A stretch of DNA of 64,000 bases from an alpha proteobacterium BAL199 (GTDB lineage: Bacteria > Pseudomonadota > Alphaproteobacteria > Thalassobaculales > Thalassobaculaceae): NCBI GenBank assembly GCA_000171835.1, contig ABHC01000011.1, forward strand, positions 62,001 through 126,000, read 5' to 3'. The notes beneath the pieces were generated by a model. That model had not been told where the DNA came from, did not search any database, and saw only the letters and a program-made list of their open reading frames with translations. Each line of letters opens with the position of its first letter. Position 1 is the first letter of the stretch. Shown piece after piece: positions 12,859 to 42,466 of the stretch. Made by a program: the position numbers and the translations under genes.

Positions 12859-12983
<125 letters not shown>

Positions 12984-13196: not shown

Positions 13197-14855
13197 CTAT
13201 CGAAAGTTCAGCACTCTAGCCTGATCGACCCAGTCGGCCGGGAGGTCGACTTGCTTCAGCGATTGCAACGTCATCTGCACCGGCTGGCGACCTTCCAGGA
13301 TGGTCTCGACGATCGTGGGTGACAGGAAGGCGAAGTCGATGTGCTGGGACACGTAGCGCATCGTCACACCCTCGCGCTGGGCAATCTCAGATATCGAGGG
13401 CGCAGTGCCGGTGACGATCTCCTCGAACCATGCCCGCCCGCGGGCGATGGCCTTCACCAGTGTCGGATCGATCATCCGGCCGTCGGTGTGGTCGGCCGCG
13501 ATCACCAACTTCATTTCCACGCCGCGGCGCCGGATCTCCATCGGAACATCGACGATTACCTTGGCGTCGAGATCGCCATGCTGCGGTAGGTCCAGCGCCT
13601 TGCGAAGCTGCGCCGTTCCCATGGACAGGGTCAGCCGGTCCGGATGCAGCGTGACGGTGAGGTCCAAATCCAGCAGCAAGGTCCGATCGATCCGCTCGAC
13701 CAGTGCGGCGGCCAGTGTGATCGCTTGGCGGTTCTCCAGCGCCCCGGTCAACACCAGTTCAGCGGTGAGTCGGCCAGCATCTGTGAGGAAGGATTCGATG
13801 GCGCGTTTGACGGCCCCCTCGATCTCGATAGCGGGGACACGCCAACCCGGCTGCGACGTTCCGTGCTGAACAATGTCGCGCGATACGTAGTAGCGGTAAC
13901 GCCGGCCCTGCTTGTTGGCGTGGCTGGGTGTTAGTGGTGCGCCATCGGCATCGACGATCATGCCAGCCAGCAGGCTCGGATACCGCGCGGTGGGCCGACC
14001 CCTTTGCCGACGGGCTTGCCGGCCTAGCTGCTGCTGCACCCGGTCCCAGCACTCCGCGTCGATGATGGCGTCGTGCTCGCCGTCGTGGATTTCGCCCTTG
14101 TGGGCGATGCGGCCAGCGTAGATCGGGTTGCAGAGCAGCTTGTAGAGATGACCTCGGGTGATCGCGATGCCACCGGTGTGCTTGCCCGATGCCCAGCTAC
14201 GCTGCTTGGTTCGGTAACCGCGCCGATCCGCCTCGGCCTTGACCAGCGCGACCGTACCGAGGTCCTCATACAGTTGGAACAGCGCCCGGACGACGGCGGC
14301 CTCTTCATCGACGACCACCAGCTTACGCTCCCGCACCTCGTAGCCGAGCGGGACGAACCCGCCCATCCACATGCCCTTCTTCTTGGACGCTGCGATCTTG
14401 TCGCGGATGCGCTCGCCGGTGACCTCACGCTCGAACTGCGCGAACGACAGCAGCACGTTCAGCGTCAGACGGCCCATGGACGTGGTCGTGTTGAACTGCT
14501 GGGTCACCGATACGAACGACACGCCCTTGCCGTCGAAGGCCTCCACGATCCTGGCAAAGTCGGTGAGGGTGCGGGTCAGGCGGTCGACCTTGTAGACGAC
14601 CACCACATCGATTTTTCCCAGCGCGATGTCGGCGAGCAGTTGCCGCAGGGCCGGGCGCTCCATGGTGCCGCCGGAGAAGCCACCATCGTCATAGCGACTC
14701 AACAACACCATCCAGCCTTCGTGCTTCTGGCTGGTGACATAGGCCTCACAGGCCTCACGCTGCGCGTCGAGCGAGTTGAACTCCTGCTCAAGGCCTTCTT
14801 CGGAGGATTTGCGGGTGTAGATCGCGCACCGGATGGATCCTGGCTTTACGGCCAT
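13197..14855 (-). CDS. Large serine recombinase (site-specific integrase)
   Basis: 552 residues. An N-terminal resolvase catalytic domain (1-150) contains the nucleophile region YTRKSSEEGLEQEFNSL, the [14 protein letters not shown] loop and YKVDRLTR; a Recombinase domain (about 170-270) and C-terminal DNA-binding part follow. It cuts and rejoins DNA through a 5'-phosphoserine link. ATG 14855 follows GGGAGGGCTGAT; the stop of the DUF2924 gene lies inside that site, so the genes are coupled. It is the last gene of a six-gene minus-strand train and lies next to tRNA-Ser, as expected for the integrase of an inserted element. Confidence 0.92.
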   Translation of the reverse strand: MAVKPGSIRCAIYTRKSSEEGLEQEFNSLDAQREACEAYVTSQKHEGWMVLLSRYDDGGFSGGTMERPALRQLLADIALGKIDVVVVYKVDRLTRTLTDFARIVEAFDGKGVSFVSVTQQFNTTTSMGRLTLNVLLSFAQFEREVTGERIRDKIAASKKKGMWMGGFVPLGYEVRERKLVVVDEEAAVVRALFQLYEDLGTVALVKAEADRRGYRTKQRSWASGKHTGGIAITRGHLYKLLCNPIYAGRIAHKGEIHDGEHDAIIDAECWDRVQQQLGRQARRQRGRPTARYPSLLAGMIVDADGAPLTPSHANKQGRRYRYYVSRDIVQHGTSQPGWRVPAIEIEGAVKRAIESFLTDAGRLTAELVLTGALENRQAITLAAALVERIDRTLLLDLDLTVTLHPDRLTLSMGTAQLRKALDLPQHGDLDAKVIVDVPMEIRRRGVEMKLVIAADHTDGRMIDPTLVKAIARGRAWFEEIVTGTAPSISEIAQREGVTMRYVSQHIDFAFLSPTIVETILEGRQPVQMTLQSLKQVDLPADWVDQARVLNFR

Positions 14856-31446: not shown

Positions 31447-31880
31447 TCGTTCGTAAGAGTCTTCTCTGATTGGGGCTTCTCGGGTCAAGCTGTATCCTCG
31501 TATTCGTGACCGTTCCCATGGATCACTCGCTTCTCTCCGCGGTCAGCGCCTGGCTGCCGCATGATGGGGTCAGGAGAGCGAGATGCCTCAAGCCGTTTCG
31601 CGATCTTCAGGTGGCCCGCATCCGTCATGGCGATTCTATAGCCGACAGAGCGGCGACAGGGAATCCCGCGTAGCGCTCAAAGCGCTGTCTGTGGATCGGC
31701 GTGGAATAAGGCCCCCGTTGATGGGGTGATCGGCGTCCAATCGGGGCTCTGACTCAATTTTGATGAAATTCGGGGGTGCACTGGCGTGACCATGTCGGCT
31801 CATACAACGCCGAGCGGACATCAGTCCGACAGGCTGCTAGGATCGCAATATCGCGATGCTTCATGGGGGTGGGGGACGGC
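31447..31880. other. Intergenic stretch, possible IS21-type end remnant
   Basis: No gene is supported. GATCGGCGT occurs twice (about 31,695 and 31,728) around AATAAGGCCCCCGTTGATGGGG, which resembles the repeated terminal sequences of IS21 elements; no transposase remains. GGGGTGGGGGA directly before 31,881 is the ribosome site of the amidase. Confidence 0.35.
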
Positions 31881-33286
31881 ATGCTTGACGAGGATCTCTG
31901 TTTCACGCCGGCGACGACCTTGCGGGAACTCATCAGGGCGAAGCAGCTTTCGCCGACCGAGCTAGTGGACTCCGTGATCGCCCGCGCCGAGGCTCTCAAT
32001 CCGCGATTGAACGCGATCTGCACTCCGACGTTCGACGCCGCGCGCGATGCGGCGAAGCGTTCGGAAGGCCGGATCGCCGGCGGTGAGCACCTCCGGCCGC
32101 TCGAGGGAATACCGGTCACCATCAAGGACCTGGTGATGACCAAGGGCATCCGGTCGATGGCCGGCTCGTACATCTTCGAGCACCGGGTTCCCGAGTCCGA
32201 CGCGCCGATCGTCGAGCGCGTGCGGGAGGCCGGTGCCGTCGTGATCGGCAAAACCACGACGCCGGAGCTCGGCTGGAAGGGCTGCGGCGACAGCCCGCTG
32301 ACCGGCATCTCGCACAACCCGTGGAAGCACGGCTACAACGCCGGCGGCTCGAGCACCGGCGCCGCGATCTGCGCCGCCGCCGGCATCGGCCCCCTGCACC
32401 AGGGCTCGGACGGTGCCGGCTCGATCCGCATGCCGGCGTCGTTCTGCGGGATCTACGCATCAAGCCGACCTTCGGACGGATCCCGTATGCGCCGGCGCCG
32501 AACAACGACAGTGTCTCGCATATCGGCCCGATGACCCGCACCGTCGGCGACGCTGCGCTGATGCTGGATGTGCTGGCCGGGCCGGACGACCGTGACATGG
32601 CAAGCCTGACCGACGAGCCGCCGAGTTATCTGGACAACCTCGAGGCCGATATCAACGGCCTGCGGGTCGCCTGGAGCCCGGACCTCGGCTACCTGAAGGT
32701 CGATCCCGAGGTCGCCGAACCGGTCCGCAAGGCGGTCGACGCGTTCACCGAGCTCGGCTGCCACGTCGAGGAGGTCGACCAGCTCTGGGACGACCCGACC
32801 GAGATGCACCGCTGCTTCTGGGTTTCCAACTTCGCCGGCAATCTCGGCCTGCTGCTGGACGAGTGGCAGGACCGCATGGATCCGGGGCTGGTTGCCTGCG
32901 TGCGCGACGGCCTGTCCGTCTCGGCGGCGGAGTACGTTCGGGCGAAACAGCAGCGCCTGAACTTCTACGCCAAGGTCCAGGACCTGTTCACCCGCTACGA
33001 CCTGCTGGTGACGCCGACCATGTCGGTTGCCGCGTTCCCGGCCGGTCGGCTGATGCCCGAGCATTGGGAGCAGCATGCCTGGGACTGGATCCGCTGGGCC
33101 GGGTTCTCCTACCCCTTCAACCTGACCTGGGTTCCTGCCGCGACCTGCCCCTGCGGCTTCACGCCCGACGGCCGACCGGTCGGCATCCAGATCGTCGCGG
33201 GCCGGTCCCAGGACCTCCGCGTCCTCCAGACCAGCCGCGCCTTCGAGCGCGCCCGCCCCTGGGCCGATCGACGGCCCGCGCTATAA
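31881..33286 (+). pseudogene. Amidase (amidase signature family) with one frameshift
   Basis: From ATG 31881 the frame covers MLDEDLCFTP to SFCGIYA, then similarity shifts frame at about 32,455 and continues with IKPTFGRIPYAPAPNNDSV to 33,286 (about 468 residues in all). One base is missing at the junction. The full Ser-cisSer-Lys triad is present before the break: Lys in PVTIKDLV, cis-Ser in NAGGSSTGAA and nucleophile Ser in DGAGSIRMPASFCG. The enzyme would hydrolyse amides. It has high GC like the chromosomal genes. A real mutation or an assembly error are both possible; apart from this base it looks functional. Confidence 0.85.
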
Positions 33287-33354: not shown

Positions 33355-34170
33355 GGTGTTGTCACGTTAACGTGCCTGAGGTTGCGGGTTCAATGATCCG
33401 GGCGTAGGCGGTGTCGATGCAAACAGAGAAAATCAGCTACAAGCGCCACCGCTTTCCGCCTCAGATCATTTCTCATGTTGTCTGGCTCTACGCCCGGTTC
33501 AACTTGAGCCTGCGCGAGGTCGAGGAGCTTATGCTGGAACGTGGTGTGGACGTTTCGTATGAGACGATCCGGCGCTGGACCGTCAAGTTCGGTCCCCGGA
33601 TCGCCCACGTTCTGCGGCGACGGCAGCCTCGCCCTGGTGATGTTTGGCATCTGGACGAAGTCGTCGTGAAGATCGCGGGCCGGTCATACTGGCTGTGGCG
33701 CGCCGTCGACCAACACGGTGTCGTTCTTGAGGAAATCTTACAATCGAAGCGAGACAAGCGCGCTGCAAAGCGGCTTTTGATCAAGCTGATGAAACGTTGG
33801 GGCTTCGTGCCCAAAAGGATCATTACGGACAAACTGCGCTCATATGGGGCCGCCAAGCGCGAGGTCGCGCCTGGCCTTGATCATTGGTCACACAAGGGGC
33901 TCAATAACCGCGCCGAGAACAGCCACTTGCCCTTCCGAAAACGAGAGCGGGTGATGCAAGGCTTCCGATCACCGGGTGGATTACAACGCTTCGTGTCTAT
34001 GCAATCCGCAACCCGCAATCGTTACTCTGTCCCAGCCCGCCGTCGTTCCGCCCTCACCATTCGCTACCATCGGCTCGAAGCGTTCGAAGCTTGGAAATCC
34101 GCGGCACATGCCGCTTGATCAACGACCGGCATGCCAACTTGCTAACTCGACGAGTTAACGTGACAACACC
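33355..34170 (+). mobile_element. IS6-family insertion sequence, copy 1
   Basis: The ends GGTGTTGTCACGTTAAC are perfect inverted repeats (33355-33371 and 34154-34170). No 8-bp target duplication is visible, which is common for IS6 elements after replicative deletion. On the left it cuts a short open frame that starts at GTG 33298; on the right it forms the last codons of the DUF1365 gene. Confidence 0.88.
33411..34118 (+). CDS. IS6-family transposase
   Basis: 235 residues (GTG 33411 or ATG 33417). IS6 features: SLREVEELMLERGVDVSYET, catalytic Asp in WHLDEVVVKI, Asp in RIITDKLRSYGAAKRE and Glu in NNRAENSHLPFRKRERVM. It appears complete. It is related to, but clearly different from, the second IS6 enzyme at 41,716-42,411. 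Confidence 0.94.
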   Translation: MSMQTEKISYKRHRFPPQIISHVVWLYARFNLSLREVEELMLERGVDVSYETIRRWTVKFGPRIAHVLRRRQPRPGDVWHLDEVVVKIAGRSYWLWRAVDQHGVVLEEILQSKRDKRAAKRLLIKLMKRWGFVPKRIITDKLRSYGAAKREVAPGLDHWSHKGLNNRAENSHLPFRKRERVMQGFRSPGGLQRFVSMQSATRNRYSVPARRRSALTIRYHRLEAFEAWKSAAHAA

Positions 34171-35011
34171 GGTTTGTCGGCTCCGGGCGCACGCTGCGTC
34201 CGAGCGAAACGGGATTTGCCGGCGGTTCCGGCCGCCTGTGGAACAGCGCGCCCTTCCACCAGAGGCGGGCCGCCTCCCAATGAATCGCCGCCATCACTTT
34301 GACCGTGATCCAGGAATGGGTGAACAGGCTGGCCAGCAGACGCAGATCGGTCAACGGCCGACGCTCGCCTGCCTGGGTGGCGATCAGCCGGTCGTTATCG
34401 TCCGGGCCAATCAACCGGATCAGGACCCGCAGGCGTTCGCCGGGTTCATCGAGCCGGAAGCGGTAGCTCCCTTCGATCGGCAGGAACGGCGAGACGTGGA
34501 ACCGCTTGTCTACCGTCTGGATCAACGGCGCGCCTGGACGGTGTCCGTCGTCCACGGGCACGAGATAGCAGTGCTGGTCCCCGAAGGTGTTCTTGACCTC
34601 ATAGAGCACACCGGCCAACGCGCCATCCGCCCGATAGCCCCAGTAGATGGTAATCGGGTTGAATACGTAACCGAGCACCCGCGGGAAGCAGAGAAGCAGA
34701 ACCCGCCCACCATCGATCGGCCGTCCGGCGCGGGCAAACGCACCCTCGATCCAGGAGCGGAGATCCGAGCCGTCGCGCGCGCCGTGGTCCCGGAAGCGGA
34801 AGCTGAACAGATTGGCGCGCTCGACCGAGAACAACCGCAGGTCCCGATCGATCGCCGTCAGTTCGTCGAGGTCCAGGAGAACGGATGCCACACGGTACCG
34901 GAACCGGTGGCGAACGACTCCCACCCGGGTGTGCATCACGCTGCCCGTGTACAGCGCCGACCGGCGCTCCGGGGCCGAGGCGGGCGACGTCACGGCTTCA
35001 GTCCGCTGCAT
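34142..35011 (-). CDS. DUF1365 domain protein
   Basis: 289 residues. It begins MQRTEAVTSPASAPERRSAL and shows the DUF1365 landmarks YTGSVMHTRVGVVRHRFRY, LLCFPRVLGYVFNPITIYWG, YEVKNTFGDQHCYLVPV and KRFHVSPFLPIEGSYRF. The last ten or so residues are read from the IS6 end, so the C-terminus is slightly altered, though the domain is complete. The start overlaps the FAD oxidoreductase gene by 14 nt. In other Proteobacteria this pair sits with cyclopropane/furan fatty-acid synthase genes and a light or singlet-oxygen response; those partners are missing here. Confidence 0.87.
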   Translation of the reverse strand: MQRTEAVTSPASAPERRSALYTGSVMHTRVGVVRHRFRYRVASVLLDLDELTAIDRDLRLFSVERANLFSFRFRDHGARDGSDLRSWIEGAFARAGRPIDGGRVLLLCFPRVLGYVFNPITIYWGYRADGALAGVLYEVKNTFGDQHCYLVPVDDGHRPGAPLIQTVDKRFHVSPFLPIEGSYRFRLDEPGERLRVLIRLIGPDDNDRLIATQAGERRPLTDLRLLASLFTHSWITVKVMAAIHWEAARLWWKGALFHRRPEPPANPVSLGRSVRPEPTNRCCHVNSSS

Positions 35012-36326
35012 CGGCGAGCACGTCGGCCGGTCCAGCCACGCAATACCGTCGATCCGCAGATGGCACTCCGCACGGCCAGGGCGGCTCCGCTCCCAACGAC
35101 CGTCCGACGGCGATAGCCGCTTTCAGACCATCTTCGTGAAAACCCCAGCCGCAGTAGCTGCCGCAGAACCACAGACCGCGCCTGCCCTGGATCGACGGCA
35201 GGCCATCCTGGGCCGACACCGCCGCCGCATCGAATACCGGGTGCTCATAGGAGAACCGCGCAAACACCAGCCCCGGGCCTGGTTCTCGCAGGGGGTTCAT
35301 GCTCACGAACAATGGGCGTGCCGGATCCAGGTTCTGCAGCCGGTTCATCCAGTACGTCAATGCCACCCGGCGATCGCTGCGCTCGGACCGGTCGGCCTGA
35401 TAGTTCCACGCCGCCCAGGCTGCCCGGCGGCGCGGCATCATCGACGGATCGCGATGCAGTACAGCCGTGTTCGCCTGATAGCGAAACGCGCCCAGGATTC
35501 GGCTTTCACCGTCCGTCGGATCGGCAATCAGCCGCAGGGCCTGATCGCCATGCGTGCCGAACACAACCTGATCGAAAACCTCGGCGCTTCCGTCGGCGGT
35601 CTCGACCGTCACCCCGGACGGCCCCGGCGTCACCCGACACACCGGCGCCGTCAGTCGAATCCGACCGGACAGTGCCGAGGCCAATCGTTCCACATACCGC
35701 CGGGAACCACCGCTGACGGTTCGCCACTGCGGACGGTCGACCAGATTGAGAAGCTGGTGGTTGTCAAAGAACCGAATGAACGACTTCGCCGGAAACGCCA
35801 GCATGGTCTGCACCGGGCACGACCAGATCGCCGCTCCCATCGGCAGCAGATGGTCATAAATGAAGCCGTCGCCATACCTTTCCCGGGTCAGCCACTCCCC
35901 AAGCGTCGGTCCCTCGCCCGGCTGCTTCAACAAGCGCGCCGCACCCGAGAAGAACCGCATGATGTCCGCCATCATGCGCCAGTATCGCCGGTCCATCAGA
36001 TTGCCGGGCTGGGCCAGCATGCCGCGAAGCGAACCTTCGTACTCAAGGCGACCGTCATCGGCCGAGACGCTGAAGGTCATCTGGCTCGCTTCGGTAGCGA
36101 CACCGAGATGCTCAAACAGATGCACGAGGTTGGGATAGTTCCGCTCGTTGTAGACGATGAAGCCGGTGTCGACTGAAACCGGGACGCCGTCATAGTCGAT
36201 CGCGACCGTATTGGCGTGGCCGCCCAGCCGAGCGTCCTGCTCGAAGACCGTTACATCGTGGACCGCGCGCATCAGCCATGCAGCACTGAGGCCGGCCACG
36301 CCGGATCCGATGACGGCAATGCGCAT
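34998..36326 (-). CDS. FAD-dependent amine-oxidase-like oxidoreductase (DUF1365 partner)
   Basis: About 442 residues from ATG 36326. The FAD Rossmann motif is AVIGSGVAGLSAAWLM with the second-strand glutamate in VTVFEQDARLGGHANTV; the C-terminal FAD segment is WFCGSYCGWGFHEDGLKAA. VDTGFIVYNERNYPNLVHLF and WSCPVQTMLAFPAKSFIRFF are typical of the cyclopropane-fatty-acid-cluster dehydrogenases. Its exact reaction is unknown; modification of membrane lipid acyl chains is the leading idea. Coupled to DUF1365 downstream. Confidence 0.86.
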   Translation of the reverse strand: MRIAVIGSGVAGLSAAWLMRAVHDVTVFEQDARLGGHANTVAIDYDGVPVSVDTGFIVYNERNYPNLVHLFEHLGVATEASQMTFSVSADDGRLEYEGSLRGMLAQPGNLMDRRYWRMMADIMRFFSGAARLLKQPGEGPTLGEWLTRERYGDGFIYDHLLPMGAAIWSCPVQTMLAFPAKSFIRFFDNHQLLNLVDRPQWRTVSGGSRRYVERLASALSGRIRLTAPVCRVTPGPSGVTVETADGSAEVFDQVVFGTHGDQALRLIADPTDGESRILGAFRYQANTAVLHRDPSMMPRRRAAWAAWNYQADRSERSDRRVALTYWMNRLQNLDPARPLFVSMNPLREPGPGLVFARFSYEHPVFDAAAVSAQDGLPSIQGRRGLWFCGSYCGWGFHEDGLKAAIAVGRSLGAEPPWPCGVPSADRRYCVAGPADVLADAAD

Positions 36327-36490
36327 AAGGTCGTCGCTCCCTGGGTTGCAGCGATCTCTACGCATCCCGACACCGATTGGATCAGATTACACGCGGAGGA
36401 TCACTGCGGTTCAGGCAAGCGTACCCGATCGTCGATGACAACTGGGGTGCTCCGGCGTATTGCCGAGGCGGTGAGGCGAACCCCGCCGGG

Positions 36491-36961
36491 TCAGTCGACG
36501 ACAATGGCGTTGCATTCGATCTCGACACCCGCGCCAAGCGGCAAGGCGGGAACGATCACTGTCGATCGCGCTGGTGGATTCTTCGGAAAGTATTCCCGAT
36601 ACGCCTCGTTCATCTTCGGAAAATCCTCGATACTGGCGAGCAGAACCATACACTTGACCGTGTTCTCAAATGAGCCGCCCGCAAGCTCCACATACTCCTT
36701 GATGTATGCGAGCGATTGACGGGCCTCCGCGCCCACACCGCCAGGCACCAACTCTGCCTTGCCGGGAACATGGCCGAGGACACCGGAGACATAGATCGTG
36801 TTGCCCGCGCGCACGACGGCTGAGTATGGCAGGCCGGGCAAGTTGTGATCCGGGTAGGCCGTTATCGCGTCTGCGTGCCCGACATTCGGCATCCCCGCAG
36901 CCGACACGAGGAGGGCCAGCGCGGATAGCGTCAGCGGTCTGGAGACGTTCGGTACTTTCAT
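36491..36961 (-). CDS. Exported RidA-family enamine/imine deaminase
   Basis: 156 residues with an N-terminal signal peptide (hydrophobic SALALLVSAA, AxA-type cleavage near HADA at residue 31), unusual because RidA proteins are normally cytosolic. The mature part has the RidA fold with NTIYVSGVLG, AEARQSLAYIKEYVE and the catalytic arginine in NPPARSTVIVPALP. RidA hydrolyses reactive enamines and imines released by amino acid metabolism. It lies 33 nt downstream of lodB and on the same strand, so it is the third gene of the lodA-lodB-ridA operon and could hydrolyse imines formed outside the cytoplasm by the oxidase. Confidence 0.85.
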   Translation of the reverse strand: MKVPNVSRPLTLSALALLVSAAGMPNVGHADAITAYPDHNLPGLPYSAVVRAGNTIYVSGVLGHVPGKAELVPGGVGAEARQSLAYIKEYVELAGGSFENTVKCMVLLASIEDFPKMNEAYREYFPKNPPARSTVIVPALPLGAGVEIECNAIVVD

Positions 36962-36994
36962 TGTTCGGCTTTTCCTTCGTGGGGTTGCGTTCGA

Positions 36995-38182
36995 TCAGGC
37001 GACCGAGCGGTCTTCGTCCACGCTCGACGCCCCAGGCTTGGCCTTCAGATTGGGCACGACGCGACGGCTCCAGAATGTGTTCTTCCTGAAGCGGACCTCT
37101 CGGCCATAGATTCCGATCTGATCCGCCAGGAAGCGCTCGACACCCGCCGTCACGCGCGCGGAATAGGCGTCGAGCGCCGCGGTCTCTCCATCCCGCGCTC
37201 GCTTTATCGCTTTAGCAGCCTCGATCCCGGTCCAAAGGGCCGTGGTCATGCCGTGTGCGGACAGCGGGTCGAACGCTGCCGCCGCATCGCCGACGGCAAT
37301 CCAGCCCGGACCGGCGGCCCGCTCCAGCCAGGTCGATCCGGCGCTGGCCAGATGCGGCGCTTGCGCTACGCCGAAGCCGCCGGTCGCGATCCACCTCGAG
37401 ATGTAGCGGCTCTCAGCGATCAGCCGTTTCCAAGCCTCGACATCCCGGGTGAGGCCGCGCGCCAGAAGATCGGGGTCCGTGTAGTAGTTGACCGCCAGGG
37501 AACCATTAGCCAGGAGGCTTGCGTACCACCAGCCATCCTGGACCGCCTCCATCACCGTGGCCGGGGTGGGGTCCACGTCCGTCTCGACCTGTTGCAGGAA
37601 CGCGACTGCGGCCACCAGCCGGTCCCGCCGATGCATCGTGGTCATTCGGCGGCCGACGAACGCGGAGCGCCCGGTCGCGTCAACCAGGACCCCGGCATCG
37701 AGTTCCTGCCCGTCGCCGGTTCGCAGTACCCACCCGCTCTGCGATCTGGCGAAATCGGCAAGCTCGGCACAGACAACCCTGCAGCCTGCCTCAGCCGCCA
37801 GATCTCTGAGATCCGCTTCGAACGCGCTTCGGTCGATTGCAGTGCCCAGGCCGCCGCGCGACGCGATTGCACTGCGCTCCAACAGTGCATCGGAGCCCCA
37901 GCTCGAGAAACTGGTTTCCATCCGGCGATGGGCCGGCTTGTCGAGGATGCCGGCCGCCCCGAGGCTCTCGAGCAGCGGCCCCGCCGCAGCCGCCAGGCTC
38001 TCGCCTGGCTTCCGCGGCGTAGCCGGCTCCGGTGCCAGCCATACGACGCTCAGGCCCTGGCGAGCCAGGGTGACGCACGCCGCCGCACCAGAGATTCCCG
38101 CGCCAGCCACGACGACCGGCTTCGCCGAAAGCCGGCTCGGGTTGGCTGCAGTCACGGCAACTGCCCCATTCGCGGCTGCCAT
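36995..38182 (-). CDS. lodB: LodB-like FAD monooxygenase (quinocofactor maturase)
   Basis: Up to 395 residues; a GTG at 38155 overlapping the lodA stop would give about 386 and is equally likely. FAD motif PVVVAGAGISGAAACVTLAR opens the protein; GESLAAAAGPLLESLG, LVDATGRSAFVGRR and IAVGDAAAAFDPLSAHGM follow the LodB/halogenase-like pattern. LodB is required for building the cysteine tryptophylquinone (CTQ) cofactor of the partner oxidase LodA in the cytoplasm before export. Overlap with lodA supports co-translation. Confidence 0.85.
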   Translation of the reverse strand: MAAANGAVAVTAANPSRLSAKPVVVAGAGISGAAACVTLARQGLSVVWLAPEPATPRKPGESLAAAAGPLLESLGAAGILDKPAHRRMETSFSSWGSDALLERSAIASRGGLGTAIDRSAFEADLRDLAAEAGCRVVCAELADFARSQSGWVLRTGDGQELDAGVLVDATGRSAFVGRRMTTMHRRDRLVAAVAFLQQVETDVDPTPATVMEAVQDGWWYASLLANGSLAVNYYTDPDLLARGLTRDVEAWKRLIAESRYISRWIATGGFGVAQAPHLASAGSTWLERAAGPGWIAVGDAAAAFDPLSAHGMTTALWTGIEAAKAIKRARDGETAALDAYSARVTAGVERFLADQIGIYGREVRFRKNTFWSRRVVPNLKAKPGASSVDEDRSVA

Positions 38183-40185
38183 TTCGTCCGGATCTCCACG
38201 TTGCCCCGGTCGACCTCGACATAGACCTCACGGGGAATGCCTTGAGGTCGTGCACCGTCCGGTGGCCCCGGCCGCTTCACCACGAAGCCCATTTCCTGCC
38301 AGATGGTGATCATGTTGGTGATGCCGTCCCAGTAGCTCGCGTTGGCGTGATACCCGATGCCGGGCACGCCCCGAGCCCACCACACCCGGTTCTCGAAGAA
38401 CTTCACGCGGGCCTCGTCAGAGAGATCGTCCCGCATCAGCTGCCTGTAGAACTCCTCAGGCAGCACATCGACCGGCAGAAGGGCGGGCCACCAGACCGGA
38501 ATCGGGAATGCGTCCTGCATCGCCACATGCTGGCAGCTGAAGGCATCCGGTTGCCATGGCAGCCCCATCCATCGCGTCAGGTCACCCGGCATCTGCGGAC
38601 CGATCGGGACGGTGTTGTCGCCCGACGGCTGGGTGGCGGCCGTGTAGTCCAGGATACGACCGACATCCTGGAGCAGCGACGTACGATCGCCACGGGCCAT
38701 CCGGAAAGGCTCAGCCGTCGGATCGGCGGACCGGCGGTAGAGCGGCGGTAGCCGCAGGTAGTAGGAAAGCTCGACACCCGGGTGGAATGCACCTCCCGAA
38801 CACGGCTCAAGCGCCGCCTCGGTCAGCGCTGCCGGCTGCATTGCCACCGGCAACTGTTCGAGCGCCTCGACACCGTCCAACGCGGCGTCGGCGAGATCGT
38901 TCACGAAATCGCCCGCCGCCCAGCGCTTCAGGAACTCGTACTGCAGCTTGGGGAACTGGAACCATTGCAGCGCGCTGCCGTCGTGATTGATCCCGTCTCC
39001 GGTCATGAGCGGGATTTTCAGATGCTCTTCCTTGTAGGCCTCGTCGCCGAGGTTATCGGGGTTCCGGAACTTGGCGAACACCGCCTGCCGAAGGGCGGCA
39101 TTCTCCGCGCTCGGATCGGCGAGCCGGGCAATGTAGTCCTCGCTCGCGAAGTTCCCGGTATCGAGCCAGGCCTCCTGCAGGTGGGCGGCCGCCGATACCC
39201 ACTCCATGAGCGCCGTTCGCCTGAATGTCGGATAGACATGCTTCCGAAAGGAGATCGGGCCGTCGGGTATCGACTGCCATCCCTGTTCCCAATGCATGCT
39301 CGCAATGACGTCGTACAACGTGCTTATCGGGGGAATCTCCGGTGCGAAGTTGGGGCCCACGCAGGCAACCCAGGCACCGTCCGCCTTCAACACCCGCCCA
39401 TCCGTCAAGGTGACGGTCGCATCGACCGGACCGTCGCACCAGTCGTCATACCAGCCGTCATTGTCCGCGAAGCTGGTGATGGGGGCGTTCTGCGGCGAAC
39501 CTGATTTGCCGTCTGATGGTACGACGATGAGACGACCGCTATCGTCAGTGCGCAACTGGCCCAGCCCGACGTCCGTGCTGTCCCAGAACCGGCCGACCAT
39601 GGCGTAGTTGCCTTGGTCGCCATCCCAATTGACCTTGCTGCCGCTGATCTCGACCGGACCTGGATCGATCACCAGCATCCGCTCCCGGTCGGCGGGGCTC
39701 GTGAAGTACCGGTTGCGCTGCTGTCCCGGCAGGCCTGGCGCCACCGCTCCATTATCCAGAGGATTGTTGAAGCCGTACCAAGCCGCCTTCGTATTGGCGA
39801 CATGCACGCGCCAGGACACCGTCGCCTCTTTCGAGGTCAGCTCGCCCACAACGCGATCCTGATCGTCGTACGCATAGATCCGGAAGCGTTGCGCTTGCTT
39901 CTTGATCCGGTCGGTTCCGTCCTTGAACCCGCCTTCCGGCTTGGGCGGCACCCCTGGCAGTTCCGGAGCGAGGAACCATTTCGGACTCCCGCCGACCCGG
40001 CAGATTCCGACCGCTGGATAGATGGCCACCCGCGCGATCTTGGCGCCCGGCGGAGCCGGCATCGCCGACGAGAAGGAAGCGATCGCCGCTTTTGCAGGCA
40101 ACGGGAACCCCAACCCCGCCAATCCGGCACCCAGGCCCAGACCTGCGAGAAAGTCGCGGCGGCGGATGTCTCTCTTGTCGTCCAT
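38152..40185 (-). CDS. lodA: LodA/GoxA-like CTQ-dependent amino acid oxidase, Tat-exported
   Basis: 677 residues; AGGAGG lies 6 nt before the ATG. A twin-arginine signal (DIRRRDFLAGLGLGAGLAGL) shows export of the folded protein. Family landmarks are IARVAIYPAVGICRVGGS near the mature N-terminus and GLPWQPDAFSCQH, where Cys551 and the aspartate four residues before it match the CTQ cysteine and catalytic aspartate of LodA. The cross-linked tryptophan is probably in RVWWARG (602-603) or VWWPALLP (565-566). Known members oxidise lysine (epsilon) or glycine with release of H2O2 and ammonia and act as antimicrobials. Substrate here is unknown. First gene of lodA-lodB-ridA. Confidence 0.88.
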   Translation of the reverse strand: MDDKRDIRRRDFLAGLGLGAGLAGLGFPLPAKAAIASFSSAMPAPPGAKIARVAIYPAVGICRVGGSPKWFLAPELPGVPPKPEGGFKDGTDRIKKQAQRFRIYAYDDQDRVVGELTSKEATVSWRVHVANTKAAWYGFNNPLDNGAVAPGLPGQQRNRYFTSPADRERMLVIDPGPVEISGSKVNWDGDQGNYAMVGRFWDSTDVGLGQLRTDDSGRLIVVPSDGKSGSPQNAPITSFADNDGWYDDWCDGPVDATVTLTDGRVLKADGAWVACVGPNFAPEIPPISTLYDVIASMHWEQGWQSIPDGPISFRKHVYPTFRRTALMEWVSAAAHLQEAWLDTGNFASEDYIARLADPSAENAALRQAVFAKFRNPDNLGDEAYKEEHLKIPLMTGDGINHDGSALQWFQFPKLQYEFLKRWAAGDFVNDLADAALDGVEALEQLPVAMQPAALTEAALEPCSGGAFHPGVELSYYLRLPPLYRRSADPTAEPFRMARGDRTSLLQDVGRILDYTAATQPSGDNTVPIGPQMPGDLTRWMGLPWQPDAFSCQHVAMQDAFPIPVWWPALLPVDVLPEEFYRQLMRDDLSDEARVKFFENRVWWARGVPGIGYHANASYWDGITNMITIWQEMGFVVKRPGPPDGARPQGIPREVYVEVDRGNVEIRTKWQPRMGQLP

Positions 40186-40870
40186 GCTGGTCCTCCTAGC
40201 TTCCGTTCACTGCTGCACGCTGGCCGATCGGAACCTGGTGCCCTGCACTGAAGCCATACCGGCCGCGAATGCGTGTCCGACCCCTCCTCCACCAGCGGCG
40301 TGCGTGGCAGTGCTGTGCAAGTTTACAGATGACGCGATTCCGTCGAGAACCCGCTGACGAGTACCAACACAGCGGGTCAACCTCTCCCCGAAGGGGGCAG
40401 CCGCCGATGCCCCGGCGCCACGCTTCAGGTCGACCGAGACGGTCGCCGACCACCGCCGACGCCACCGCTCGATGCACCCGTGAACTCGGGCATCAAGGGT
40501 CCATCCCATCTCCCCCTCCCCATGTCCGCAACCGGACGCACCGGCCTCCGAGTGTTCATTGTGAAAGAGCAAGTCGAACCCTGCCTGCCGAACGTCTGGA
40601 AAACCAGTACCGTTCGTCCAGAAATTCGGACGCTATCCTTGTGTTAAACGATTTCAGGTTGGAGACCTGGAGCGTCTTTGGCTCCAATGCGTGGAATGGT
40701 TCTATGGGATTGCAAACATTGGAGAAGTTGATACCAGCAGATGACAATCCTGATACCATCGAGGTTCACCAGAAGTGAAACGTGGCGAACACTGCCGAGA
40801 CCTGCTGCCGTAGCGGCTATGAACGGATGATCAAGCGTCGTTCAGAAGAGTGGCGGGACAGTAGGGAGCG
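40186..40870. other. Divergent intergenic region between lodA operon and AraC gene
   Basis: 685 bp with no supported gene. It must hold the lodA operon promoter (AGGAGG Shine-Dalgarno at 40,192-40,197) and that of the AraC-type gene on the other strand. GC falls in 40,590-40,780, where a small frame ends GLQTLEKLIPADDNPDTIEV; I do not regard it as a gene. Confidence 0.45.
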
Positions 40871-41660
40871 ATGACGAAACACCACGGTGCCGCAATCCCA
40901 ACGCCAAAGGACGATCCGGTTCCCCATGCCGTTTTCCGGGTCGACGGCGTGCCGACGCACGAACGCTTCGACCTGTGGCGCGAGAGCATCGCGTGTGTTT
41001 TCGAGGTCGAAGCGAACAAGACCGTACGAAGCAACGGTTTCCAAGCGGAAATCGACGCGAACATGTTCGGTTCGGTCATGCTGGCGCGCACGCAAACGCT
41101 GGAACAGCGCTGGGAGCGGTCTCCGCGGCTGATGGCCAAGGACGGGATGGATCACTACATGATCCAGCTCTACGAAAAAGGCGACATGTTGTGGGAGACC
41201 GACAGTGGGCCAATGAGTTTTCCCAAGGATGGCCTGGTGGTCTTTGACCTTGCGCAGCCGATGGTGTCGAAGACCAATAATTTTGCAAACATCTCGCTGT
41301 TCATCCCACGTCTCATGCTTGAGGATCAGCTGAAATCCGCCGGCGACCAGCATCTGCGCGTCCTCACGGGGCGCGAGCCGATGGTGCAATTGCTGCGCGA
41401 CCACATGATTTCGCTCAAGAAGCTATCGAGCCGGATAACGGCGCGCCAAGCGGTCGAGATCGCCCCGGCGACCGTGGGCTTGGCGGCAGCCTGCCTGAAC
41501 GCCGCGATCTCGCCGGACAGTCCGCATCAGGCGTCCGGGATCGTGTTCGCGCAGATCACCAAGGCACGTCGGTTTGTCGAGGCGAACATCACCAATCCCA
41601 ACCTGTCGGTCGAGGCGATCTGCATCGAGGTTGGCGTGTCCCGCTCGAAGCTCTACGAAC
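40871..41660 (+). pseudogene. AraC-family regulator truncated by IS6
   Basis: About 263 host residues remain. They contain the AraC-binding-like N-terminal domain (FRVDGVPTHERFDLWRESI, YMIQLYEKGDM) and the first helix-turn-helix of the AraC domain (NPNLSVEAICIEVGVSRSKL). The IS6 end at 41,661 removes the second helix-turn-helix and the frame runs 28 codons into the element. It is divergent from lodA and so is the probable original regulator of the oxidase operon; loss of half the DNA-binding domain likely inactivates it. Confidence 0.83.
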
Positions 41661-42466
41661 GGCACTGTCACATCTTCGTCGTCCGGGCGCACGAAGCCCA
41701 GGTTCTGATCTGGGATCACGCCGCCTCGGCAGCGGCTTGCCATTGAGCGAATGCTTCGCCGCGCAGGGTCCGAAGGGTGCTGCGAGAGATCAGATGGCGC
41801 TGGACATTGAAGGTGTTGTAGACGGCGGCGTGAGCAGAGAGGAAGCGCTGAGTTGATCCCGGTCTCTTGAAGCCGATCCACGATCGTTCCCGTCGGCGGG
41901 TAGGCTGGTGTGAATTCTCAGCGCGATTGTTCAGCCGGCCGCCGGTAGCGTGCCGATCGGCCATGCCAATCTCTCGAAGCGCGGCTCCATAGGACCGGAG
42001 CTTGTCAGTCACGATCGAGGTCGGCGCGAAGCCCTGTTTCCGCAGGAGGCTGCGCATCAGCTTCAGGGCGGCCCGCTTGTCACGTCTCGGCTGCACCAGG
42101 ACATCGAGGACCTCGCCCTCGGCATCGACAGCGCGCCATAGGTACATCGTTCGGCCGCCGATCGAGACGAACATCTCGTCCAAGTGCCAGGAGTTGCAGG
42201 GTCGCGGTCGCATCGCGCGGAGCCGCCGGGCGTAGGCCGGCCCGAAGCGCGCGACCCAGCGCCGGACCGTTTCGTAGCTGATATCGAGGCCTCGCTCCGC
42301 CAGCAGGTCCTCCACGTCCCGCAGGCTGAGGTTGAAACGCAGGTACAGCCAGACGGCGTGCTGGACGATCGATGATGGATAGTGCAATCGGGCGTATGAG
42401 ATCGGCTTCATGAGGCGACGTTACCGGCCGCGACCGGCGTCAGCCATGAGTTCGTGTGACAGCGCC
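41661..42466 (-). mobile_element. IS6-family insertion sequence, copy 2
   Basis: Ends GGCACTGTCACA (41661) and, inverted, GGCGCTGTCACA (42466) resemble the IS26-type terminus. No matching 8-bp duplications flank it. It truncates the AraC gene. Its ends and transposase differ from copy 1, so the two do not form a simple composite transposon. Confidence 0.86.
41716..42411 (-). CDS. IS6-family transposase
   Basis: 231 residues, complete. SLRDVEDLLAERGLDISYETV, catalytic Asp in WHLDEMFVSIGGR, Asp in SIVTDKLRSYGAALRE and Glu in NNRAENSHQPTRRRERSW give a full DDE set. Confidence 0.95.
   Translation of the reverse strand: MKPISYARLHYPSSIVQHAVWLYLRFNLSLRDVEDLLAERGLDISYETVRRWVARFGPAYARRLRAMRPRPCNSWHLDEMFVSIGGRTMYLWRAVDAEGEVLDVLVQPRRDKRAALKLMRSLLRKQGFAPTSIVTDKLRSYGAALREIGMADRHATGGRLNNRAENSHQPTRRRERSWIGFKRPGSTQRFLSAHAAVYNTFNVQRHLISRSTLRTLRGEAFAQWQAAAEAA

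Follow-up and report, generated by a model that had tools for sequence, protein, structure and literature searches.

The goxA-goxB-ridA locus

The window analysed here is a 64,000-nucleotide stretch of contig ABHC01000011.1 (positions 62,001 to 126,000) from the alpha proteobacterium BAL199. Three consecutive minus-strand genes, spanning window positions 40185-36491 in the order goxA-goxB-ridA, encode a putative exported quinoprotein oxidase, its flavoprotein maturase and a Rid-family protein with a predicted signal peptide:

38152..40185, minus strand: goxA, cysteine-tryptophylquinone (CTQ) glycine oxidase with a twin-arginine leader, 677 amino acids (aa); matches to Pfam LodA_N and LodA_C and to NCBIfam GoxA.
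40081..40185, minus strand: twin-arginine translocation (Tat) leader of GoxA, about residues 1-35 with approximate end; IRRRDFLAG motif.
36995..38182, minus strand: goxB, flavoprotein maturase, 395 aa; match to NCBIfam GoxB.
36491..36961, minus strand: ridA, 156 aa, a Rid-family protein with a predicted N-terminal signal peptide; match to PF01042, relatives in PDB, same gene order in relatives.
36872..36961, minus strand: RidA residues 1-30, predicted signal peptide, probably cleaved after GHA; leader in relatives, ribosome sites and codon-position pattern.

The start of goxB overlaps goxA by 31 nucleotides (nt), ridA begins 33 nt past goxB, and the ATG of goxA is preceded by the ribosome site taggagg. 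An earlier note on this DNA, whose range to 40870 also covers the sequence between goxA and a divergent AraC-type gene, had described a lodA-lodB-ridA operon with an exported RidA. The arrangement of three consecutive genes on one strand, the Tat motif and the RidA leader were all found as described, but the names LodA and LodB have to be replaced, since NCBIfam gives GoxA and GoxB.

Identity of the oxidase, the maturase and the Rid protein

GoxA matched Pfam LodA_N with 254.1 bits and LodA_C with 103.1 bits. It passed the NCBIfam GoxA model (NF038173) with 1228.9 bits at a cut-off of 750 and failed the model of LodA, the lysine epsilon-oxidase (NF038172), with 180.9 bits at a cut-off of 600, which rules out LodA as the identity of the oxidase. 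Epsilon-oxidation of lysine would give no alpha-imino acid. GoxB likewise passed its NCBIfam model (NF038174; 499.9 bits, cut-off 400). Among aligned family members, Cys551 was present in 21 of 21 and Trp603 in 19 of 21. We infer that these two residues form the CTQ cofactor, the Trp assignment being uncertain given the spacing of 52 between them, which is unlike that of C516 and W581 in LodA. GoxA starts with MDDKRDIRRRDFLAG, a twin-arginine motif in which R9 R10 D11 F12 L13 A14 G15 were invariant across seven aligned GoxA proteins; a Tat leader on GoxA has already been published (PMC3948610, PMC4417212).

The Rid protein of the window passed PF01042 over residues 44-154 (96.1 bits, gathering cut-off 27.3) and had relatives in PDB (best E 6.5e-26). 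Against TIGR00004 it scored 95.7 bits, under the cut-off of 106.25, and is therefore termed RidA-like here and no strict member; other Rids linked to goxAB (L043, L042 and L095) scored 98.8, 99.9 and 52.7 bits against the same model. Its Arg132 aligned with chain position 106 of goat UK114 (1nq3), which we took as the Arg numbered 107 in the human protein. The equivalent of this residue (Arg105/107) was kept in all 20 aligned linked Rids and in a Martelella copy. This carboxylate-binding Arg is needed for imine deaminase activity and has been suggested to predict it (PMC4433059, PMC5619798).

Recurrence of the gene order

Within the source family Thalassobaculaceae, 11 of 36 genomes contained 16 LodA-family loci, and the 15 others were retrieved with their flanks. 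An adjacent Rid was found only in the window and in T. litoreum (L031, the same locus as L042). A genome-contig scan with an alignment of seven GoxA sequences confirmed 154 relatives, of which the best 80 loci were kept. A Rid gene was present in 20 of these 80. In 19 of the 20 it carries a leader and follows goxB immediately in the same orientation, with gaps of -4 to 97 nt; the Rid of the other locus, L106, was distant, on the opposite strand and leaderless. As two loci (L091 and L118) end too early, the count of adjacent leader-bearing Rids is 19 in 78 testable GoxA-like loci among the best 80 of 154.

The gene order was also found on plasmids. Two near-identical mobilizable Martelella plasmids carry goxA-goxB-ridA, one of the two annotations splitting goxA in two, and a copy of the second group defined below is located on a plasmid of Methylobacterium bullatum that lacks annotation; this count covers Martelella and M. 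bullatum, and 18 further plasmid records, all under 40% identity to GoxA, were left out. Recurrence of ridA beside homologues of this oxidase, which the earlier note had proposed to survey, was thus established by the 19 of 78 loci and the plasmids.

Among 385 genomes drawn evenly from the class, 13 contained 15 LodA-family loci in total. Of these loci only that of the window has ridA behind goxB. Two others, L161 and L168, are cut off before this could be judged, and in L165 a Rid without a leader lies some 1.1 kb off on the opposite strand. No Rid lay downstream in 15 examined LodA-family loci outside the GoxA group (L027-L030, L156-L162 and L165-L168; none scoring above 311 bits against the window GoxA), 13 of which have room for one.

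A predicted signal peptide on RidA

Residues 1-30 of RidA (MKVPNVSRPLTLSALALLVSAAGMPNVGHA) are an extension in which a charged, a hydrophobic and an AXA-like part can be told apart, and a crude leader rule together with the sequence itself gives the Sec-type pattern of a positive n-region, a hydrophobic core and an AXA-type site. The source genome had 11 Rid matches, ten of which were examined as loci with the window's own among them; the window Rid passed the rule and none of the nine paralogues did. The rule was applied to Rids at every possible start and is loose: it lets through 248 of the 943 predicted genes and, among 943 N-termini that had been scrambled, 130 (14%). The case for export therefore relies on position and conservation as well as the ribosome sites, and not solely on the rule.

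RidA might instead be translated from Met24, which has a counterpart in T. litoreum, and stay in the cytosol without any signal peptide; the share of scrambled N-termini let through by the rule speaks for this as well. The window ridA has AAGGAA ending 10 nt before ATG1, and by eye no ribosome site was present at a suitable distance before Met24. T. litoreum has a perfect AGGAGG just before the signal-peptide ATG, and 17 of the 19 linked ridA genes have, by eye, a purine-rich stretch resembling a ribosome site ahead of the leader, those of L044 and L105 being weak. Between the window and T. litoreum the 30-codon leaders differ at codon positions 1, 2 and 3 by 10, 5 and 23 changes, a pattern that indicates evolution as coding sequence; 17 of 30 leader residues are identical, and 115 of 126 in the mature part. 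With the leader conserved and the ribosome site so placed, the Met24 start was rejected, and a cytosolic RidA seems highly improbable. By the crude rule the N-terminus was leader-positive in all 19 linked copies and also in the window and Martelella Rids, and together with the ribosome sites this points to a signal peptide across the linked Rids, in agreement with the earlier note.

As controls we used five genomes with GoxA and no adjacent Rid (G017, G028, G029, G030 and G193), covering 40 of their 42 Rid matches; the two left out belong to G193. Thirty-nine of the 40 gave a Rid, and one of the 39 (L228) passed the leader rule. This pass was judged false because a likely start lies downstream of the passing stretch. 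The control test also required an extension of at least 18 residues, which the linked copies exceed. A Fisher test of leader-positive linked (21/21) versus unlinked copies (1/48) gave 8e-17, which is only illustrative given the relatedness of the sequences.

Two Rid lineages beside goxAB

The linked Rids fall into two groups. Group 1 contains archetypal-looking Rids and comprises the window, T. litoreum, Lamprobacter, two Roseibium, Devosia and Martelella; five compared members were 49-85% identical to the window copy. Group 2 comprises 14 loci of Rhodopseudomonas, Afipia, Bradyrhizobium and Methylobacterium with Rids only 20-27% identical to the window copy, and in seven of the 14 loci ridA overlaps goxB by 4 nt. 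Group 2 GoxA representatives passed NF038173 with 871.1 and 880.2 bits (cut-off 750), and the GoxB partners of L095 and L102 scored 256 and 259 against NF038174, under its cut-off of 400.

In a GoxA tree, built by a quick method with support by the Shimodaira-Hasegawa-like approximate likelihood ratio test (SH-aLRT) only, group 1 formed one clade of seven rows with support 100 and group 2 lay far away, with many Rid-less GoxA lineages in between. L188 was labelled Rid-less in this tree and later found to have a Rid, which makes its count of label changes a slight overestimate. The two groups did not join in the Rid tree either. Forcing them together cost 89 log units, and a common origin of both was rejected by the approximately unbiased (AU) test (p = 2.6e-5); the exact placement of each group is unsure in this tree of 124 columns with several long branches. 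Two unrelated versions of Rid thus appear to have joined goxAB operons separately. We regard this convergence as the strongest evidence of a functional link, and the repeated recruitment suggests a real partnership outside the cytoplasm.

The same data bear on hitchhiking, by which ridA would have come to lie beside goxAB through descent in a mobile block and have no role in glycine oxidation. The window copy is located in a stretch rich in insertion sequences (IS) past a tRNA-Ser gene (largely by eye), and the group 1 block is also found on mobilizable plasmids and spans Alpha- and Gammaproteobacteria. Against it stand two unrelated leader-bearing Rid lineages without shared origin in the same operon position, and the 4-nt overlap with goxB in half of the group 2 loci; we consider this explanation improbable.

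A possible role in extracytoplasmic glycine oxidation

Our preferred reading, to which we give a probability of about one half, is that the operon serves glycine oxidation by an exported enzyme and that its exported Rid is dedicated to clearing the glyoxylate imine made by GoxA. GoxB would build the tryptophylquinone cofactor in GoxA, probably in the cytoplasm, and folded GoxA would leave via the Tat route, while RidA would be exported separately by a Sec-type signal peptide. Once past the inner membrane, GoxA would turn glycine into glyoxylate, ammonia and hydrogen peroxide. With GoxA as the oxidase the imine would be that of glyoxylate, and RidA would hydrolyse this short-lived compound (iminoacetate), or a different alpha-imino acid produced by GoxA, in time to keep it from reacting with nearby amines or proteins or from slowing turnover. 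Gene identity, order, leader-like N-termini, recurrence and the two Rid origins were computed; the location of the proteins, the substrate, and an imine step with its benefit are inferred. The earlier note's suggestion that oxidase and Rid act in sequence beyond the cytoplasm is thereby partly supported: it is plausible on sequence grounds, as the substrate-binding Arg is kept throughout the aligned linked Rids. A cytosolic precedent is DadY, a Rid2 protein that hydrolyses the imine released by DadA and whose loss led to a 128-fold drop in competitive fitness (PMC9714295).

Several observations weigh against this reading, and the main one is chemical. In the usual mechanism, oxidation of amines by a tryptophylquinone releases the carbonyl product while the nitrogen stays on the cofactor, and such enzymes are not known to set free an imine. 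Our search of the open-access literature found no paper that settles product release by GoxA. The active-site Tyr46 is kept in group 1 and is a Trp in all 14 members of group 2, and Ser59 is kept only in the window and T. litoreum, with Gly in the other linked Rids. Fifty-nine of the 78 testable GoxA loci have no intact adjacent Rid (among them L101, with a broken Rid remnant behind goxB), which indicates that GoxA works without one. Even within the group 2 GoxA clade six rows lack a Rid (L099, L103, L104, L108, L111 and L117), next to the remnant of L101. The nearest relative of the group 2 Rids, their sister L155, has a leader and no gox gene among its printed neighbours, so that export in group 2 may precede the link to gox; three further relatives of this group (L152-L154) have no leader. 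Finally, leader-bearing Rids also occur alone in Alphaproteobacteria, at 10 of 29 examined loci (nine by the rule, L130 by eye).

These 29 loci derive from a search with the window RidA, which matched 36 of the 385 class genomes at E <= 1e-16, the genome of the window included, and gave 41 matches beyond the window. No goxA or goxB lay within the 1.5 kb flanks of the 29 loci, and the wider neighbourhoods of the ten leader-bearing orphans, viewed by eye, contained no gox gene and no common neighbour save in pairs of close relatives.

An exported Rid as a general requirement of GoxA was rejected, given the loci without an intact adjacent copy and the five such genomes, in which none of the 39 Rids covered looks convincingly exported. 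A bolder reading, which we hold possible but doubtful, is that GoxA of these clades, unlike the mechanism assumed for tryptophylquinone enzymes, leaks or deliberately releases iminoacetate and that exported Rids were recruited at least twice independently as the second enzyme.

The exported Rid may also be a true partner with another target, either a secondary imine, the Schiff base arising when glyoxylate meets free amines or lysines of proteins, or an imine that a neighbouring exported flavin oxidase produces. This would agree with a quinoprotein, from which free imine is not expected. In T. litoreum, ridA is followed after about 50 base pairs by a multicopper oxidase gene and then by a PF01593 flavin amine oxidase gene with an RR-type leader; PF01593 genes without an evident leader lie downstream of the window ridA and upstream of goxA in L044. 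No leader-bearing flavin oxidase was seen by eye in the other group 1 neighbourhoods, where the Pfam scan covered selected genes. The Rid substrates tested so far are imines and enamines of amino acids (PMC5619798), which speaks against a different target, and we hold this alternative to be fairly unlikely.

Clearly less likely still is an exported Rid that serves as an oxidant-responsive holdase or as a GoxA subunit, protecting GoxA or proteins of the envelope against hydrogen peroxide or chlorine species derived from it, with an incidental deaminase site. RidA acts as a chaperone under reactive chlorine, and GoxA makes peroxide. RidA is also a subunit of a periplasmic Chlamydomonas oxidase (cited in PMC5053998). 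The catalytic Arg, kept in all 20 aligned linked Rids, would however be superfluous in a pure chaperone, and most of the examined peroxide-making LodA-family loci have no adjacent Rid.

If the bolder reading of iminoacetate release holds, extracytoplasmic glycine oxidation would be a two-enzyme process, and exported Rids would form a recognisable class with roles in the cell envelope. Work on Rid proteins has mostly concerned the cytosol, where they guard against reactive imines and enamines. That Rids with a predicted signal peptide appear to have joined goxAB on two occasions argues for a need to control imine chemistry beyond the cytoplasm as well, where extracellular oxidases release peroxide. 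The system further bears on the mechanistic point of whether a tryptophylquinone oxidase releases a free imine. LodA-like enzymes act in biofilm dispersal (PMC4417212).

Genomic surroundings

Upstream of goxA the following features were found:

40186..40870, no strand: divergent intergenic region, presumed to hold the operon promoter and a regulator site, from position alone.
40871..41746, plus strand: divergent AraC/FeaR-type regulator gene, C-terminal DNA-binding part lost at the IS6 element; FeaR-like, 50.4 bits, below cut-off.
41716..42411, minus strand: IS6-family transposase gene overlapping the broken regulator end; NCBIfam transpos_IS6, 227.8 bits.

T. litoreum encodes an intact regulator homologue of 357 aa with an HTH_18 domain, divergent from goxA. 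Homology of the window regulator to it ends at about residue 263, and the IS6-type element coincides with the lost helix-turn-helix end. With the DNA-binding end lost, gox regulation may be altered in the window strain. A composite transposon was dismissed, as the two IS6-family regions share 71% over 99 nt only and thus form no single pair. The IS-rich stretch extends over window positions 13000-63600 beyond the tRNA-Ser gene (12859-12948) and contains a recombinase-like gene (13197-14855) and several transposase-like genes; gene identities there were assigned by eye, except for the two IS6 genes.

Directly downstream of ridA, on the same strand, are a flavin amine oxidase-like (PF01593) gene and a DUF1365 gene (34142-36365). 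An amidase-like gene (by eye) at 31776-33286 appears divided over two overlapping frames and is probably frameshifted. In Roseibium hamelinense (L044) the region upstream of goxA contains a cyclopropane fatty acid synthase-like gene and a flavin gene similar to that of the window. An S8 serine peptidase is encoded near gox-rid in Roseibium (L119:10552-14043, an autotransporter) and in Martelella (L187:1711-5223), and a similar small lipoprotein-like protein (by eye) was seen near gox-rid in the same two loci.

The scattered leader-bearing, gox-free Rids were found at L126, L128-L131, L133-L135, L144 and L151, and the leader-bearing group 2 relative (L155/L172) adjoins a long metallopeptidase-like gene (family by eye). 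All seven group 1 Rids and all ten exported orphans have both Cys104 and Cys150, as do 7 of 34 other Rids, but none of the 14 Rids of group 2 has the pair. A disulfide between them was dropped as a mark of export, since group 2 has no such pair and some of the other Rids do.

Comparison with known systems

The goxAB operon of Marinomonas mediterranea likewise encodes a GoxA with a Tat leader and a flavoprotein from the downstream gene, and its glycine oxidase is found in the culture supernatant. As described there, it differs in consisting of two genes, with surrounding genes in opposite orientation and no Rid gene (PMC3948610, PMC4417212). The main text of PMC4417212 contains no mention of L-PSP, YjgF, endoribonuclease or RidA.

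Group 2 offers a link to a solved structure. PDB entry 3LME from Rhodopseudomonas palustris is near-identical to the mature group 2 linked Rids over 128 residues; it was deposited without function, as a possible translation initiation inhibitor, and its construct starts a few residues past the predicted leader. The passage of PMC6742747 that names 3LME draws no link to goxAB. The exported Rids linked to goxAB now suggest a role for this protein. Rhp-PSP, a Rid from R. palustris culture supernatant (PMC4632080), was considered as proof of secretion and set aside, as its two published peptides are absent from the group 2 linked Rids.

In Pseudomonas aeruginosa the dadA-dadX-dadY operon likewise has a Rid-type partner that hydrolyses the imine from an amino acid oxidising enzyme, supported by in vitro and fitness data. 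It differs in its flavin dehydrogenase and in the Rid2 subfamily of DadY, and the parts of the source consulted mention no DadY export (PMC9714295). The periplasmic L-amino acid oxidase of Chlamydomonas, with its M-alpha and M-beta (RidA) subunits, places RidA outside the cytoplasm and bound to an oxidase, in a eukaryotic enzyme (as cited in PMC5053998).

A further parallel is the lao-cccA-ridA cluster of Gluconacetobacter diazotrophicus, where a Tat-exported amino acid oxidase and RidA are likewise encoded in one operon and joint action has been proposed (PMC5053998). Judging from the position of the published forward primer, its RidA probably also has an extension of about 25 residues. The cluster differs in having a flavin L-amino acid oxidase and a cytochrome c and no quinoprotein, and export of RidA is not stated in the account consulted (PMC5053998). 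For the goxA-goxB-ridA trio itself no description was found in the open-access literature, which does not prove absence; among the papers listed, only PMC9769709 and PMC6116504 contain a GoxA or LodB term together with a Rid term, and their titles point to unrelated subjects. The earlier note's view that the trio is undescribed holds to this extent, but an exported amino acid oxidase with RidA has already been discussed for the flavin enzyme (PMC5053998), and the new part is the quinoprotein version together with the apparent convergent recruitment of two Rid lineages.

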